Shown: positions 8,399 through 15,036 of the stretch, piece after piece
Layout: every line of letters begins with the position of its first letter
How positions within the stretch are numbered: the stretch's first letter is position 1
Program-made: the position numbers and the translations under genes
The notes under the pieces: generated by a model
The model's input: only the letters and a program-made list of their open reading frames with translations
Database searches by the model: none
What the model was told of the DNA's origin: nothing
DNA from: Luteibacter yeojuensis
Lineage (GTDB): Bacteria; Pseudomonadota; Gammaproteobacteria; Xanthomonadales; Rhodanobacteraceae
Reading direction: 5' to 3'
DNA length: 64,000 nucleotides
Assembly (NCBI RefSeq): GCF_011742875.1
Contig: NZ_JAAQTL010000001.1
Coordinates: 496,001-560,000, forward strand

Positions 8399-8482
8399 AA
8401 GTCGCTGGGTGCCTGCTTTCGCAGGCACGACGTGCGGCAGCATCCCGTCGTCGCCCCTGCGAAGGCAGGGGCCCAGCGACTT
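8399..8482. repeat. Inverted REP pair, second family (AAGTCGCTGGG type)
   Basis: Two copies of a palindromic unit in opposite orientation: 8399-8432 (AAGTCGCTGGG, a small hairpin, then ACGACG) and 8446-8482 (CGTCGTC, hairpin, CCCAGCGACTT). This is a different family from the GTAG/GTGG REPs in the window. A single homologous copy is found inside lexA at 14734-14770. The pair lies between convergent genes and can fold into a large stem. Confidence 0.85.
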
Positions 8483-9019: not shown

Positions 9020-12000
9020 CTAATGGAAATCCCTGGAAACGGAGTCCATGGCCGGGAGCAGGTCGCTGAAATCGTGCAGGCGGGTCGCCACGAGGTGGCG
9101 CACGCCGTCGATGGCCTGCCACTGGCCGTCGACGGCGAGCAGGACCGCATCCAGAAGGGCATGGCGGCAGGCCTCGGCCACCTTGGGCCGGACGATCACG
9201 TTGACCTGTCCGGTCTCGTCTTCCAGTGTGACGAAGGTGATGCCGCCGGCGGTCTGCGGCCGCTGGCGCACGGTGACCAGACCGGCATGGCGCAGCCAGG
9301 CACCGTTGCGTTCACCGTCGAGGTCCCTGGCACGCCGCGCGCGTCGGGCCAGCAAGTTCTTGCGAATGAGCCGTAGCGGGTGCGCCGTGAGCGAAAGCCC
9401 GTGGGTGGCATAATCGGCGAAGACGTTCTCCGCCAGGGTGGGGGGGCGCAGGACCGGGCGCGCCTCCGCGACCGCATCGATGAGAGGCAGGCTGCGCTCG
9501 ATGCCGGAGCTTTCCCAGCGCGCGCGATGGCGATGCCCGCTGAGCACGCGCAGGGCGCCCGCGTCGGCGAGGCGTTCGCGTTCGAAACGGTTGAGGTCCG
9601 CGCGCCGGGATAGGTCGGCGAGGTCGCGGAAAGGCGCCGCTTCGCGCGCGGCGACAATCCGTTCGCCGAGGCCGGCAGACAGGCCGCTCACCATGCGCAG
9701 GCCAAGCCGCAGGGCATGTCTCCCGGGTTCAGGACCGACGGGTTCGAGCGTGCAGTCCCAATGACTGGCCGTGACATCCGGCGGCCGTACTTCCACCCGA
9801 TGCCTGCGCGCGTCGGCCACGAGTTGCGCGGGTGCATAGAAGCCCATGGGCTGGCTGTTGAGCAGGGCGCAGGTGAAGACTCCCGGGTGGTGGCACTTCA
9901 TGTACGACGACGCATAGGCGATGAGCGCGAAACCCGCCGCATGCGATTCGGGGAAGCCGTAGCTGCCGAAGCCCTTGATCTGGTCGATGATCTGCTGGAT
10001 GAATTCGGGCGAATAACCGTTCGCCGCCATGTTCCTGCGGATCCTCGGTTCGAATTTCTCCACGCCGCCGCGGCGCTTCCACGCGGCCATGGACCGACGC
10101 AGGTCGTCGGATTCGTCGGCGGTGAAATTCGCCACCACCTGCAGGAGCGCCATGACCTGTTCCTGGAAGATGGGCACACCCAGCGTGCGCTCCAGCACGG
10201 GCTTCACGCCTTTTTCGTAGACGACTTCTTCCCGGTTCTTCCGCCGTTGCAGGTAGGGATGGACCATGCCGCCCTGGATGGGGCCGGGACGCACGATCGC
10301 CACCTGGATCACCAGGTCGTAGTACTCCCGTGGTTGGAGGCGCGGCAGCATGGACATCTGTGCGCGCGACTCGATCTGGAATACGCCGATGGTGTCCGCT
10401 TCCCGGATCATCGCGTAAGTGCGCTCGTCGTCGGGAGGAATGTCGGCAAGCCGCCTGTAGTCGGGCCCTCCCTGCGCGCGCAGCAGGTCGACCGCCTTGC
10501 GCATGCACGTGAGCATGCCGAGGGCGAGGCAGTCGACCTTGAGCAGCTTCATGGTTTCCAGGTCGTCCTTGTCCCACTGGATCACCGTTCGATGGTCCAT
10601 CGCCGCGTTCTCCACCGGCACGAGGTGGTGGAGCGGCGTGTCGGAAATGACGAAGCCGCCCACGTGCTGGGAAAGGTGCCGCGGCATGCCGACCAGCTCG
10701 TCCACCAGCAGCATGAGTTGGCGGATGGTGCGGCTCGTCACGTCGAAGCCGCGTTCGGTCAGGCGCTCGACGATGGAGACGTCGCCGTGCGCATGCGAAT
10801 AGGCGCGGCTCAGCTGGTCGAGCTGGTCTTCGGACAGGCCCAGCGCGCGACCGACGTCGCGCGCGGCGCTCTTGGAACGGTAGCTGATCACCGTGGCGGC
10901 GAGGGCGGCGCGCTCGCGTCCGTACTTGTCGAACACGTACTGGAGGACTTCCTCGCGCCGCTCGTGCTCGAAGTCCACGTCGATGTCGGGCGGTTCGTCG
11001 CGCTCGATCGAGATGAAGCGTTCGAACAGGGTGGACACCTGGGATGGGTTCACCTCGGTGATGCCGAGGCAGAAGCAGACCACCGAGTTGGCCGCCGAAC
11101 CGCGGCCCTGGCAGAGGATCTGTTTCGAACGGGCGAAACGGACGATGTCCTCGACGGTGAGGAAGAAGGCTTCGTATTCCTTGTGCGCGATGAGCGCCAG
11201 TTCCTTTTCGATGCGCTCGACGATGGACGGCGGCACTTCGTCCGGCCAGCGCGTGGCGGCCCCCTCGTAGGTCCGGCGACGCAGGTAGGTGGCCTGGTCG
11301 AGGCCCTCGGGGACCAGTTCGCGCGGATAGACGTAATGGATCCGGCGGATGTCGAATCCGGTGCAACGTGCGGCGACGGCGAGCGTTTCCTCCATCATGT
11401 CGCGCGGATAGATGCGCGCGATCGTCTCGCGCCTGCGCAGGTGGCGTTCGCCGTTGGGGAAGAGCGCGTGTCCGGCTTCGGACAATGGCTTGTTGATGCG
11501 GATCGCGGTCATCACGTCCTGCAGGGCCCGGCGGCTCCGCAGGTGCATGTGGACATCGCCCGCGGCCACGCAAGGCAGGCCGTGACGTTCGCCGAGTTGG
11601 CGCATCGCGGCCAGCTCGGCCTCGTCGTGCTGGCCGCGATGCAGTTCCACGGCGAGCCGTGCGCGCCCCGCGAAATGCGCCGCCACCCAGGTGGCGCGCG
11701 CGTCGTGCGTCGCCGTGTCGGTGGCGCCGTAAGGACCCGGTGCCCAGAGCAGGCAGAGGCCCGCGCCCAGGGTTTCGAGGTCGGCGCGATGCAGTTCGTA
11801 ACGTCCCTTGGGCGCACGCCGCCGGGCGAGCGTGATCAGTCTGCACAGCTCCGTGTATCCGGCCTGGTTCTCGACGAGGAGGACCACGACGGTACCGTCG
11901 GAAAGGCGGAACTCGCTGCCCACGACGAGGGGCAGGCCGGTGTCGAGCGATGCTTCCAGTCCGCGCACGATGCCGGACAGCGAGCATTCGTCGGTGATGG

Positions 12001-12166
12001 CGAGCGCGGCATAGCCGATGGCCTTCGCCCGCTCGAACAGCTCCCGCGCACTGGATGCGCCACGTTGGAAACTGAAATCGCTGAGCGCATGCAGTTCGGC
12101 ATAGGCGGGGACATCGCTGTCCTCGTCGTTGGCCGGTGTCAGATTGGCTGTATCGAGCTGCATCAT
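9020..12166 (-). CDS. dnaE2: Error-prone DNA polymerase DnaE2 (ImuC)
   Basis: A 1048-residue C-family polymerase that carries out translesion synthesis with ImuA and ImuB after DNA damage. It begins with a PHP domain (YAELHALSDFSFQRGASSAR, then ITDECSLSGIVRGLEAS). The polymerase core contains the catalytic PDIDVDF segment. Near the C-terminus there is an OB-fold (GGITFVTLEDETGQVNVIV). Length is usual for DnaE2 and shorter than replicative DnaE. The start is one of two adjacent ATG codons (12166, 12163); a longer in-frame start at 12205 would read through a REP element and is rejected. It is the last gene of lexA-imuA-imuB-dnaE2. Unusually, 110 bp with a REP pair separate it from imuB, and no good ribosome-binding site is visible. 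Confidence 0.95.
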   Translation of the reverse strand: MMQLDTANLTPANDEDSDVPAYAELHALSDFSFQRGASSARELFERAKAIGYAALAITDECSLSGIVRGLEASLDTGLPLVVGSEFRLSDGTVVVLLVENQAGYTELCRLITLARRRAPKGRYELHRADLETLGAGLCLLWAPGPYGATDTATHDARATWVAAHFAGRARLAVELHRGQHDEAELAAMRQLGERHGLPCVAAGDVHMHLRSRRALQDVMTAIRINKPLSEAGHALFPNGERHLRRRETIARIYPRDMMEETLAVAARCTGFDIRRIHYVYPRELVPEGLDQATYLRRRTYEGAATRWPDEVPPSIVERIEKELALIAHKEYEAFFLTVEDIVRFARSKQILCQGRGSAANSVVCFCLGITEVNPSQVSTLFERFISIERDEPPDIDVDFEHERREEVLQYVFDKYGRERAALAATVISYRSKSAARDVGRALGLSEDQLDQLSRAYSHAHGDVSIVERLTERGFDVTSRTIRQLMLLVDELVGMPRHLSQHVGGFVISDTPLHHLVPVENAAMDHRTVIQWDKDDLETMKLLKVDCLALGMLTCMRKAVDLLRAQGGPDYRRLADIPPDDERTYAMIREADTIGVFQIESRAQMSMLPRLQPREYYDLVIQVAIVRPGPIQGGMVHPYLQRRKNREEVVYEKGVKPVLERTLGVPIFQEQVMALLQVVANFTADESDDLRRSMAAWKRRGGVEKFEPRIRRNMAANGYSPEFIQQIIDQIKGFGSYGFPESHAAGFALIAYASSYMKCHHPGVFTCALLNSQPMGFYAPAQLVADARRHRVEVRPPDVTASHWDCTLEPVGPEPGRHALRLGLRMVSGLSAGLGERIVAAREAAPFRDLADLSRRADLNRFERERLADAGALRVLSGHRHRARWESSGIERSLPLIDAVAEARPVLRPPTLAENVFADYATHGLSLTAHPLRLIRKNLLARRARRARDLDGERNGAWLRHAGLVTVRQRPQTAGGITFVTLEDETGQVNVIVRPKVAEACRHALLDAVLLAVDGQWQAIDGVRHLVATRLHDFSDLLPAMDSVSRDFH

Positions 12167-12175
12167 GATGAAAAT

Positions 12176-12276: not shown

Positions 12277-13710
12277 TCAGGCGAACCAGCCGTGCAGCAT
12301 CCAGCCGTCGAGGGTGCCGGGCGGCAGGTAGGCCCAGGCCTGCTGTCCCTGTGCCGTGCGCACGATGTAGTAATCGCGACGCGTATCGCCGCCATCCCAC
12401 CAGCCGCTTTCGATGCGCTCGGGGCCGGCGAGCACGGCCGCCGGTTCCGGGCGCATCGGTTGCGGCCGCGGCAGGAGCCAGAGGGGCCGGCGACGTCGCG
12501 GCGGAGATACCGTGTCGCCGGGCCTGCCGTAGCGGGAGGCGTATTCGGGACGGTGATCGGCGACCAGCGCGATCTGGCGCAGCGCCGCGTCGCCGAGGCG
12601 TGCGCGCAGGCGCTCGTCGAGCGTGGGCCAGTCCAGGCCGTCGCCGCGCACGGGTTCGAAAAGGTCGCGCACGGGCGGTCGGAATACCGGCAGTTCGGCG
12701 GCGTCGAGTTCGATCGCCCGCGCGGGAGCGGGCAGGGAGGCACGTTCCAGCCGCGTGCGCGCCAGTTCGAACAGGCGCTCGGCATCGCGCTGCGGTGCGG
12801 CCATGGCGACCGCGATACGCGTGGCCTCGCCGCGCGCATGCTCGAGGGTGAGCGTGAAGCGCTGCACGCCGCCGTCGCGTGCGGCAAGCTGGTTGGCAAG
12901 CGCGCGGGTGAGCCGGCGCAGCGGGAAGAGCAGCGGTTGGCTGCCGTCCAGTTCGCCGTCGAACTCGATTTTCTGCCGGAAGCTTGCCGGCGGCTGCCAT
13001 GCGGGCAGCACGTCGGACGCATGGCCCCGCACGCGGTCGAGCCAGTTCACTCCCTCGCGTCCGATGCGCCGCGTGAGTTCGGGACGCGGCAGACGGAACA
13101 CCTCGTCGAGGCGGCGGAAGCCCATCGCCTGCAGCGAGGTCACCGTGGCGGCGGGCAGCCCGCTCTGCTTCAGCGGCAACGCAGCGAGCATGCGCCGCAC
13201 GCCCTCATGCTCCGGCAGCACGATCCCATCGGCGCTGGCGGCGAACACCCAGGACGCCGCGGCGAACGGTGTGGCCGCCAGCGTATGCGCATGACCCTGT
13301 CCGGCCAGCCCCGCGCGCAGGCGTCCGGCCAGCAGGGGCCAGCCGTCGAAAAGGCGCAGGCTGGCGCCGACCTCCATCAGGATCGCGTTGGGTGGCACGA
13401 GGCTCACATGGCCGCTGAACTGGTAGCACCAGGCGGCCAGTTCGGCGAGCAGGCGTTCTTCCGCGCCGGGATCGCGCGGACGTACTTCGAGAGCGGGACA
13501 CAAGGCGCGCGCAGCGGCCAGGCTCTGTCCTCGACGCACACCGAAGGATGAGGCTTCGGTGTTCGCCGCGGCGATCAGACGCTGGCGCGCCTTGTGGTCC
13601 AGCAGGGCGGAGGGGCCTGCCTCCGGCACCACGGCGAAGGCGGCGGAGAACGCCAGGCCGGGAAAGCGGAGACAGGCCCAAAGCATGGCTGCGCGAGCAT
13701 CGTCAGGCAC
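12277..13710 (-). CDS. imuB: ImuB, Y-family polymerase-like mutasome protein
   Basis: A 477-residue Y-family polymerase homologue that acts as the hub of the ImuABC mutasome, contacting the beta clamp, ImuA and DnaE2. The palm and finger regions are recognisable (LWACLRFPGLAFSAA, then LRRGQSLAAARALCP-like VRRGQSLAAARALCPALEV). The acidic catalytic residues of DinB-type polymerases are not at the expected places, consistent with known ImuB proteins being inactive. The little-finger region follows at about residues 230-340. The C-terminus is Arg/Pro-rich and ends with WAYLPPGTLDGWMLHGWFA. It starts with GTG and overlaps the imuA stop codon by 8 bp, so the two are translationally coupled. Confidence 0.93.
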   Translation of the reverse strand: MPDDARAAMLWACLRFPGLAFSAAFAVVPEAGPSALLDHKARQRLIAAANTEASSFGVRRGQSLAAARALCPALEVRPRDPGAEERLLAELAAWCYQFSGHVSLVPPNAILMEVGASLRLFDGWPLLAGRLRAGLAGQGHAHTLAATPFAAASWVFAASADGIVLPEHEGVRRMLAALPLKQSGLPAATVTSLQAMGFRRLDEVFRLPRPELTRRIGREGVNWLDRVRGHASDVLPAWQPPASFRQKIEFDGELDGSQPLLFPLRRLTRALANQLAARDGGVQRFTLTLEHARGEATRIAVAMAAPQRDAERLFELARTRLERASLPAPARAIELDAAELPVFRPPVRDLFEPVRGDGLDWPTLDERLRARLGDAALRQIALVADHRPEYASRYGRPGDTVSPPRRRRPLWLLPRPQPMRPEPAAVLAGPERIESGWWDGGDTRRDYYIVRTAQGQQAWAYLPPGTLDGWMLHGWFA

Positions 13711-14332
13711 GCATGCGCAGCAGCGGAGCAGTGGTGGTCAGCAGACCGCGCGACTTGAGCACGTCCACGTAGGTGGCTTCGTCGCTGTTGCTGACCTTGA
13801 GGCGGAGCGCGGCCGGGCTGTTCTGCGCGGCGTGCGCGGCGGGACGGAAGAGCATGGCGCACGCATCGCCGCTTTCCGCGGCCAGCTGCAGGCGGCGCAG
13901 GCTGCGGTAATCGATCTCGGGCAGCCAGCCGACCACCGCGCCGCAGCAGCCCGAACGCAGGCACTGTTCCATGCTCCACGCGGCCTCGGTGCTGCCGGCG
14001 TGGATTTCGTGCAGGAAGCGCAGGTCCACTCCGGCCGCCGCGAGCGCGGGGGCGTAAGGCAGGTAGGGCGGAGCGACGAAGATCACCCGGCGGTGTTCCT
14101 GGGTGAGCGCGGCCAGTGCGGGCATCACCAGGTCCAGCTCGCCGAGGCCGTCGTGCTCGAACAGGATCTCGCTCAGTGCGCCCTGCGGCCAGCCGCCGCC
14201 GGGAAGCTTCGCGTCCAGCGAGGTCCAGCCCGTGGACAGCGCGCGCACGCGCGGCTGGCGATCGGCTGACCGGCGCCAGATACCGGGATGGTCGAGCACC
14301 TGGGCAAGGGTCGGGGTGGCGATGGCGTTCAT
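13703..14332 (-). CDS. imuA: ImuA, RecA-like mutasome protein
   Basis: A 209-residue RecA-fold protein of the ImuA/SulA-like group. The pattern is LSTGWTSLDAKLPGGGWPQG (the RecA-type GG.P.G turn), then ALSEILFEHDGLGELDLVMP, with later strands RRVIFVAPP and GAVVGWL. A true Walker A lysine is absent, as is usual for ImuA. Known ImuA proteins bind ImuB and modulate RecA during SOS mutagenesis. The ATG at 14332 lies 2 bp after the lexA stop codon, within the SOS operon. A much longer upstream frame reads through lexA and is rejected. Confidence 0.92.
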   Translation of the reverse strand: MNAIATPTLAQVLDHPGIWRRSADRQPRVRALSTGWTSLDAKLPGGGWPQGALSEILFEHDGLGELDLVMPALAALTQEHRRVIFVAPPYLPYAPALAAAGVDLRFLHEIHAGSTEAAWSMEQCLRSGCCGAVVGWLPEIDYRSLRRLQLAAESGDACAMLFRPAAHAAQNSPAALRLKVSNSDEATYVDVLKSRGLLTTTAPLLRMRA

Positions 14333-14334
14333 GG

Positions 14335-15000
14335 TCAGGTCCTGCGGATGATGCCGACGTAACGCCCTTCGATGGCGAACGCATGGCGGCGTGGATCGAC
14401 TTCGATGGGGGCGAAGTCGGGGTTTTCGGGGAGCAACAGGAGACGGTCGCGCTCGTGCTTCAGGCGCTTCACGGTGACTTCGTCGTCGAGGCGCGCGACG
14501 ACGATCTGGCCGTCGTTCGCCGTGGCGGTCTTGTGCACGGCGAGCAGGTCGCCGTCGAGGATGCCCGCGTCGCGCATGCTCATACCCACCACGCGAAGGA
14601 GGTAGTCGGCGCGCGGGCGGAACAGGGAGGGATCGACTTCGAGCTGCGCCTCGATGTTCTCTTCCGCGAGGATGGGCGAACCCGCGGCGACGCGGCCGAT
14701 CAACGGCAGGTCGTTCGCGGCGGCGATGCCGCGGAAGTCGCTGGGCTCCCGCCTTCGCGGGAACGACGACAGGTAACCCGCGTCGCCGGCCGGCAGGCGC
14801 AGGCCACGATGCTGCGGCGAGCGCTCCAGCACGCCCTTCTTCACCAGCGACTCCACGCAGGCCTGGGCGGAACTGTGGCTGGAGAAGCCCAATGCCTCGG
14901 CGATCTCGCGCAGCGTGGGAGGAAGCCCCTGGCTCTGCAGGTATTCCCGCAGGAAGGCGAGGGTCTTTTGCTGACGCTCTGTAAGGGAAGGTGTCGACAT
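14335..15000 (-). CDS. lexA: LexA-family SOS repressor with an in-frame repeat insertion
   Basis: A 221-residue repressor. The N-terminal winged helix covers about residues 3-70 (LTERQQKTLAFLREYLQSQG, then LREIAEALGFSSHSSAQACV). The C-terminal S24 peptidase domain begins near residue 98. The self-cleavage site is Ala106-Gly107 (RVAAGSP), and the catalytic pair is Ser141 (GMSM) and Lys178 (VTVKRL). The linker is about 20 residues longer than in E. coli LexA, because residues 78-89 (SSFPRRREPSDF) are encoded by a REP-type palindrome. The gene leads the imuA-imuB-dnaE2 operon and is probably its repressor. The start codon is 1 bp from the operator, so the transcript is probably leaderless. A second, global lexA elsewhere in the genome is likely in this lineage but is not seen here. 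Confidence 0.95.
   Translation of the reverse strand: MSTPSLTERQQKTLAFLREYLQSQGLPPTLREIAEALGFSSHSSAQACVESLVKKGVLERSPQHRGLRLPAGDAGYLSSFPRRREPSDFRGIAAANDLPLIGRVAAGSPILAEENIEAQLEVDPSLFRPRADYLLRVVGMSMRDAGILDGDLLAVHKTATANDGQIVVARLDDEVTVKRLKHERDRLLLLPENPDFAPIEVDPRRHAFAIEGRYVGIIRRT
14734..14770. repeat. Single REP-type palindrome inside lexA
   Basis: GAAGTCGCTGGG followed by a hairpin (CTCCCGCCTTCGCGGGAA) and CGACGAC, homologous to the two units at 8399-8482. Read on the minus strand it is in frame with lexA and codes for SSFPRRREPSDF in the linker between the DNA-binding and protease domains. Confidence 0.85.
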
Positions 15001-15001
15001 G

Positions 15002-15036
15002 TGTACATTTGTACATATGTACGAGGAGCGGCGCAA
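15002..15036 (-). promoter_or_regulatory. LexA operator and promoter of lexA-imuA-imuB-dnaE2
   Basis: A perfect palindrome TGTACAAATGTACA (15002-15015) partly overlaps a second one, GTACATATGTAC (15011-15022). GTAC-N4-GTAC/GTGC is the type of site bound by LexA2 proteins that control imuB-dnaE2 cassettes in pseudomonads and xanthomonads. On the minus strand a possible -35 TTGCGC (15036-15031) and -10 TACAAA (15013-15008), spaced by 17 bp, would start transcription at or next to the lexA ATG. LexA bound here would cover the -10 box. Confidence 0.8.

Follow-up and report, generated by a model that had tools for sequence, protein, structure and literature searches.

Palindromic repeats with a CGTC tag are built from the tag, an 8-bp stem, a 4-nt loop and a CCA tail. 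According to the main text of PMC3733652 (Di Nocera, De Gregorio and Rocco 2013) these repetitive extragenic palindromes (REPs) are mostly intergenic and their dimers mostly have the tags outside (HH). Some of them are located inside ORFs, many of which are replication or repair genes (uvrA, recBCD and dnaE2), and it was suggested in the same text that REPs in repair genes help to make mutators. No dedicated transposase was reported there for the CGTC REPs, and complementary A-T bases were described as almost invariable at the first and second stem positions of the CGTC-1 type (PMC3733652). The Rickettsia palindromic elements (RPE) are, according to the review PMC10969869, about 150 bp long and nearly half of them lie in ORFs; RPE-4 and RPE-6 have been classed among the CGTC repeats (PMC3733652).

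A repeat of this kind was found within the coding sequence of the SOS repressor LexA of Luteibacter yeojuensis, in a stretch of 64,000 nucleotides that was analysed as a whole (the window). The Luteibacter REP resembles CGTC-1, as described in the main text of PMC3733652, in its tag, stem, loop and tail, in its dispersed copies, in its mostly tags-outside pairs and in having no associated transposase among those of the Y1 type. It differs in the first stem pairs, to which the A-T rule does not apply, and in the GCGACTT-like extension that the Luteibacter units share after CCA, unlike CGTC-1 of that text. Since G-C and mixed pairs are commoner at the first stem positions than stated in PMC3733652, we call the Luteibacter REP a variant of CGTC-1 and not a strict member.

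Like the RPE, as far as these are described in the texts above, the Luteibacter repeat is palindromic and is read in frame within unrelated genes; however, it consists of one unit some 35 bp long and is intragenic in 4 of 84 cases, whereas the RPE measure about 150 bp and are found in ORFs in nearly half of the cases. The GTAG REPs and their RAYTs are likewise a system of short dispersed palindromes, but the Luteibacter tag is CGTC and the Y1 gene has no flanking REPs. A GTAG/RAYT origin was rejected because the sole Y1_Tnp place in the own genome has no REP within approximately 1.5 kb.

The main text of PMC3733652 mentions neither Luteibacter nor lexA. No paper was found in a literature search that linked LexA to intragenic REPs, and the papers obtained for palindromic repeats of Luteibacter were not on the subject, judged by their titles and the first lines of their abstracts. 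The type of REP and its habit of landing in DNA-repair genes are already known; what LexA adds is a clean natural case that can be compared before and after the insertion. With a palindromic repeat inside the SOS repressor and relatives with an empty site to serve as natural controls, the published guess that mutation behaviour is altered by REPs in repair genes can be put to a direct test in a single, well-understood protein; a neutral insertion would show how far the LexA hinge stretches. We consider the case of moderate interest, because much is known about LexA and its natural controls come from close relatives.

The lexA locus and its insertion

The source genome comprises 4.22 Mb in 6 contigs, and the lexA locus is located within a contig of 3.29 Mb. 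The lexA gene (14335..15000, minus strand) encodes 221 aa followed by the stop codon, and its product matched NCBIfam TIGR00498 with 204 bits (cut-off 110.95) as well as the Pfam families LexA_DNA_bind and Peptidase_S24. As in other LexA repressors (TIGR00498; E. coli 1jhf and 1jhh), the DNA-binding domain, the S24 protease, the Ala-Gly site and the Ser/Lys dyad are all present; the difference lies in 13 repeat-derived residues in the linker of the window LexA. No second LexA was detected in the own genome at E<=0.001, the window lexA being the single match.

The gene order is lexA first, then imuA (13703..14332, minus strand; NCBIfam NF033429, 221.7 bits against a cut-off of 150), imuB (12277..13710, minus strand) and dnaE2, the error-prone polymerase gene (9020..12172, minus strand; NCBIfam NF004225, 1397.7 bits). 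The Y-family gene imuB is named from its position and domain only (Pfam IMS, 41.8 bits); in NCBIfam it gave weak matches to DNA polymerase IV alone, below the cut-off. Comparison of upstream regions identified a TGTACAAATGTAC palindrome (15003..15015, minus strand) 2 bases from the lexA start codon; of the 24 regions examined, 21 have it in the same orientation and 3 have it reversed. This palindrome is presumed to be the LexA operator, through which the gene would be autoregulated.

For the codon alignment 30 lexA genes were fetched, three of which (L033-L035), without the search motif, were dropped, so that 27 genes including our own were aligned. The window lexA alone contains 13 extra codons, an in-frame insertion of 39 bp (14734..14772, minus strand) which corresponds to residues 77-89, LSSFPRRREPSDF. 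The site is empty in 22 of 22 congeners, whose LexA proteins are 82-97% identical to the window LexA, and in the 4 aligned sequences from other genera. The nearest relatives by LexA among the genomes compared are the Luteibacter genomes G022 and G003, referred to here as sisters; the sister sequence is GGTTA|TCGGGG, and in the window lexA 39 bp separate GGTTA from the homologue of TCGGGG. The ends of the insertion are ambiguous by 1-2 bp, with CC on both sides, and any target-site duplication is at most 2 bp (CC) and inseparable from chance.

No REP-like sequence was found within the coding ranges when 109 further lexA loci were scanned, a set in which some genomes are represented twice; the best matrix score was 3.9 against 53.0 for the window gene. 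All six frames of the REP unit in the insertion are open, so that any insertion divisible by three reads as protein. The initial annotation had placed a unit of 37 bp at 14734..14770: the place is correct, but the whole insertion measures 39 bp by alignment with the sister genes, and the "three codons' worth" of length given there must be replaced by the thirteen added codons of the alignment.

The repeat family and its copies inside genes

The REP unit of lexA (14735..14768, minus strand), as delimited by a position matrix and a covariance model, has the CGTC tag, an 8-bp stem, a GAAG loop, the CCA tail and GCGACTT. The matrix, built from 29 units with the lexA copy excluded, gave it a score of 53.0, and it ranks 7th of 84 units for closeness to this matrix; a covariance model also built without the lexA copy recognized it with E=3.3e-12. 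Only three units reached a score of 12 or more in the window. The intergenic inverted pair at 8399..8482 (no strand assigned), whose tags face each other, scored 46.2 and 44.6, which bears out the homology first proposed between this pair and the lexA unit. No match of score 12 or above was found in the window copy of dnaE2, nor in three base-shuffled windows.

A pattern search of the own genome, in which as many as 3 mismatches were tolerated, found 33 places, compared with 1 for the reversed control pattern, and 30 genomic copies share CGTC, the 8-bp stem, the 4-nt loop, CCA and GCGACTT. In these 30 units the tag bases C, G, T and C are conserved in 26, 27, 29 and 26 cases, respectively, CC of the tail in 30 and the next A in 23. 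For 26 units the stems are paired in 96.2% of 208 cells; 24 cells were changed on both sides compared with 8.5 in shuffles, and the covariation score was matched by none of 500 shuffles. Two of the five covariation measures are undistinguished from shuffles: the further pair types (7 against 7.6) show no excess, and the number of double-changed pairs, equalled in 24 of 500 shuffles, does not stand out. At the first stem pair 21 of the 26 units have GC and 4 have AU, and at the second 16 have UA and 8 have CG; in the lexA copy they are G-C and U-G.

The covariance model without the lexA copy identified 103 places in the own genome at E<=1 and 88 at E<=0.01. Among 84 distinct units, 28 occur in pairs with the tags outside, 12 in pairs with the tags inside (2 of these 40 overlap) and 44 are single. 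These comparisons strongly support that a dispersed palindromic repeat entered lexA and reads in frame. The statement of the initial annotation that the repeat had become part of the LexA reading frame agrees with the absence of the insertion from all the congeners, the dispersed family, the covarying stems and the retained catalytic residues; the alignment of orthologues and the search for repeats in the genome gave a private insertion and an existing family, not the shared residues with diverged codons expected of ordinary linker sequence.

With the stricter filters used across genomes, by which weak matches are lost, the family occupies 88 places in the own genome and 96 and 72 in the two sisters. 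Counted in the same way, 11 of the other 20 congeners have no copy, 5 have 1-7 and 4 have at least 52 (15 of the 20 have 0-3), and at least 114 copies are present in each of the congeners G014, G016 and G017. On these counts the REP family is patchy within the genus. Among the REP-rich trio of the own genome and its two sisters, only the own genome has the lexA insertion. The intergenic pair at 8399-8482 is also found in sister G022 (L150:10274-10351). At the place where the window and G022 have the REP pair, G003 (L159:3322-3365) contains a single merged palindrome, as would result if a deletion had collapsed the pair.

The loci around the 88 places yielded the 84 units (matrix cut-off 18) that were analyzed for intragenic location, for which an ORF coding signal was required on both sides. 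By these criteria, which could miss repeats at gene ends or heavily decayed copies, 4 of 84 units are intragenic (in lexA, recD, a DUF2339 gene and a glycoside hydrolase 95 gene) and one more is possible. Since 63% of the window is covered by strictly chosen ORFs, 4 of 84 represents a strong depletion (binomial approximately 2e-29; a count of 5 changes nothing), the pattern that purifying selection would leave. In sister G022, examined with the same codon model but a slightly less strict test, 0 of 93 units were intragenic, and the difference from 4 of 84 is borderline (Fisher p=0.049).

The recD copy is decayed (L221:1498-1531, equivalent to G000:C1:46876-46909; model E=0.0026). It is located within a private 15-codon insertion, PSSFRGQEPSDP, which is missing in 22 of 22 congeners; the product of this gene (L221:471-2390) contains the domains RecD_N, AAA_19 and UvrD_C_2. 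The copy in the gene for the DUF2339 membrane protein (L063:1495-1528) lies where the protein is rich in proline and variable, as seen with 15 of its 23 orthologues aligned, and that in the glycoside hydrolase 95 gene (L049:1499-1532) at the end of a signal-peptide-like start (11 others aligned).

From a relaxed list of ORFs covering REPs, six candidates were looked at further. The ORF at L170, apparently a lipoprotein gene wrongly extended upstream, was discarded, and no Pfam domain was found in the ORFs at L194, L216 and L217 and on the plus strand of L219. A weak REP-like unit (L219:1502-1535) is present in a minus-strand ORF with a CAAX-protease-like domain downstream, where it reads SSSRRRKGPS, in the lexA frame; this unit is a possible fifth intragenic copy. 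A preference for one frame was not accepted: lexA, recD and the DUF2339 gene have the same frame, but three of four are too few (rough estimate approximately 0.1).

The LexA linker and the readings of the insertion

Linkers were parsed by one regular expression in 105 of 107 LexAs. The linker of the window LexA, with 28 residues, is the longest of the 105; that of the sister has 15, and the lengths in the remaining parsed proteins range over 4-23. In the PDB alignment the matched segments of E. coli LexA end at residue 68 and resume at 75, and those of the window LexA end at 69 and resume at 97, leaving gaps between wing and protease of about 6 and about 27 residues, respectively. The long linker originally described (about 30 residues against about 9 in E. 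coli) must be corrected to these values, and about half of it is ancestral, as seen from the 15 residues of the sister. The cleavage site Ala106-Gly107 and the residues Ser141 and Lys178 occupy invariant columns among 59 LexAs and are intact, as had been annotated.

In the AlphaFold2 models, pLDDT values below 50 were obtained for residues 72-94 with the insert and for residues 73-81 of the sister protein, which lacks it. From residue 121 (sister: 111) almost to the C-terminus the blocks had pLDDT values of 86-94, and the cleavage-site segment only 56-71 in either model. With pTM of 0.55 and 0.58 and mean pLDDT of 77.1 and 82.6, with the insert and for the sister respectively, the domain arrangement is not predicted by these models. 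The dN/dS ratio of lexA was 0.097 and 0.091 against the two sisters and 0.042 between the sisters, values that average the periods before and after the insertion over pairs at different distances. From sequence and models together, we read the window LexA as a probable working repressor with a stretched hinge.

The reading that we prefer, with a probability of roughly 0.78, is that a REP entered the lexA linker after the split from the nearest relatives and was tolerated, being near-neutral with an effect on the SOS response that is nil or small. As the sequence shows, a copy of the CGTC-tagged REP entered the linker region in this Luteibacter lineage, after the split from the nearest relatives compared; the net gain of 39 bp kept the frame, the REP being read as the residues given above. 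The REP-containing LexA is presumably made. The insertion would have survived because the hinge that joins the DNA-binding domain to the protease domain is disordered and tolerates changes in length, and the repressor with the insert would still bind, dimerise and self-cleave, so that the SOS response is most likely affected little or not at all. As to how the REP moved, our best guess, a speculative one, is that a Y1-type tyrosine transposase acting in trans transferred a hairpin copy in single-stranded form, or that the template was switched at a replication gap.

The near-neutral reading is favoured by the dN/dS against the sisters, by the low-confidence stretch already present in the sister and by the range of natural linkers, and is opposed by a 28-residue linker that has no precedent among the 105 parsed, by the lower mean pLDDT with the insert, by the modest pLDDT around the cleavage site in both models, by the second private insert, in recD, and by the lower dN/dS between the sisters. 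The insertion is known from the one genome that represents the species in the comparison. An ordinary diverged linker that merely looks like the repeat, or an error of assembly, is hardly credible: LexA linkers do differ in length and sequence, but a model excluding the lexA copy recognized the unit, the 39-bp gap is clean in all 22 congeners, the frame is kept and the locus is inside a large contig. The ordinary-linker reading was rejected on the empty site in the congeners and the covariance match.

It is unlikely that the insertion is a selected modification in which 13 Arg-rich residues alter the hinge geometry or a contact with RecA* and shift the SOS set point. Such a role would suit the longest linker parsed, in the sole LexA found in the genome, heading the imuA-imuB-dnaE2 cassette, and would be in line with the decayed REP in recD of the same genome and with similar speculation in the main text of PMC3733652. 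On the other hand, the insert falls within a stretch of low predicted confidence, the cleavage site and the catalytic dyad are invariant, and no congener carries the insert, which gives no sign of long retention. The proposal made at the outset, that the insert may change the geometry of cleavage or the threshold of SOS mutagenesis, is unsupported, because the stretch is of low confidence with or without the insert and linkers of 4-23 residues occur elsewhere. In its wider form, that REPs would be recurrent modifiers of DNA-damage circuits, one having lengthened the LexA hinge and one having entered RecD, with the LexA insert altering how fast, or at what threshold, the imuA-imuB-dnaE2 cassette is induced in the SOS response, we regard the idea as quite improbable.

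An effect on the RNA, by which the REP hairpin would slow translation or alter the stability of the message of lexA and the downstream cassette, changing the dose of LexA and not its shape, seems very improbable. Taken by itself as RNA, the insert region has a folding energy of -22.4 kcal/mol, and REPs are thought in PMC3733652 to work in RNA, but insert-free segments of five congeners already fold strongly (-45.0 to -62.8 kcal/mol per 120 nt, compared with -82.3 for the own 159 nt, all as raw energies), and the hairpin is located more than 200 nt from the start codon. Also unlikely is a bias of such REPs to enter, or to persist in, replication and repair genes, by which lexA and recD would not be random hits. 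With the private insert in recD, 2 of the 4 intragenic copies are in SOS or repair genes, which pure chance would not predict, and the many REP-carrying repair genes of other species led Di Nocera et al. (PMC3733652, main text) to doubt chance as well. However, lexA prompted the finding, so that only 1 of the remaining 3 copies counts, sister G022 has no intragenic copy by its slightly looser test, and no significance test speaks in favour.

Composite elements in a sister genome

In sister G022 thirteen composite elements of approximately 230-360 bp were observed, with inverted CGTC-REP ends whose tags point inward and with homologous spacers (L301:1502-1835; also in L298, L302-L308, L310, L316, L317 and L321). 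Four composite-element loci had no Rfam match at gathering scores, and the own-genome loci fetched contained matches to these elements only as pieces of up to 83 bp. The spacers are approximately 70-95% identical among the pairs listed, and the L301 element folds as a nearly full-length hairpin. The composite elements resemble copies of a miniature element with REP ends that was amplified recently.
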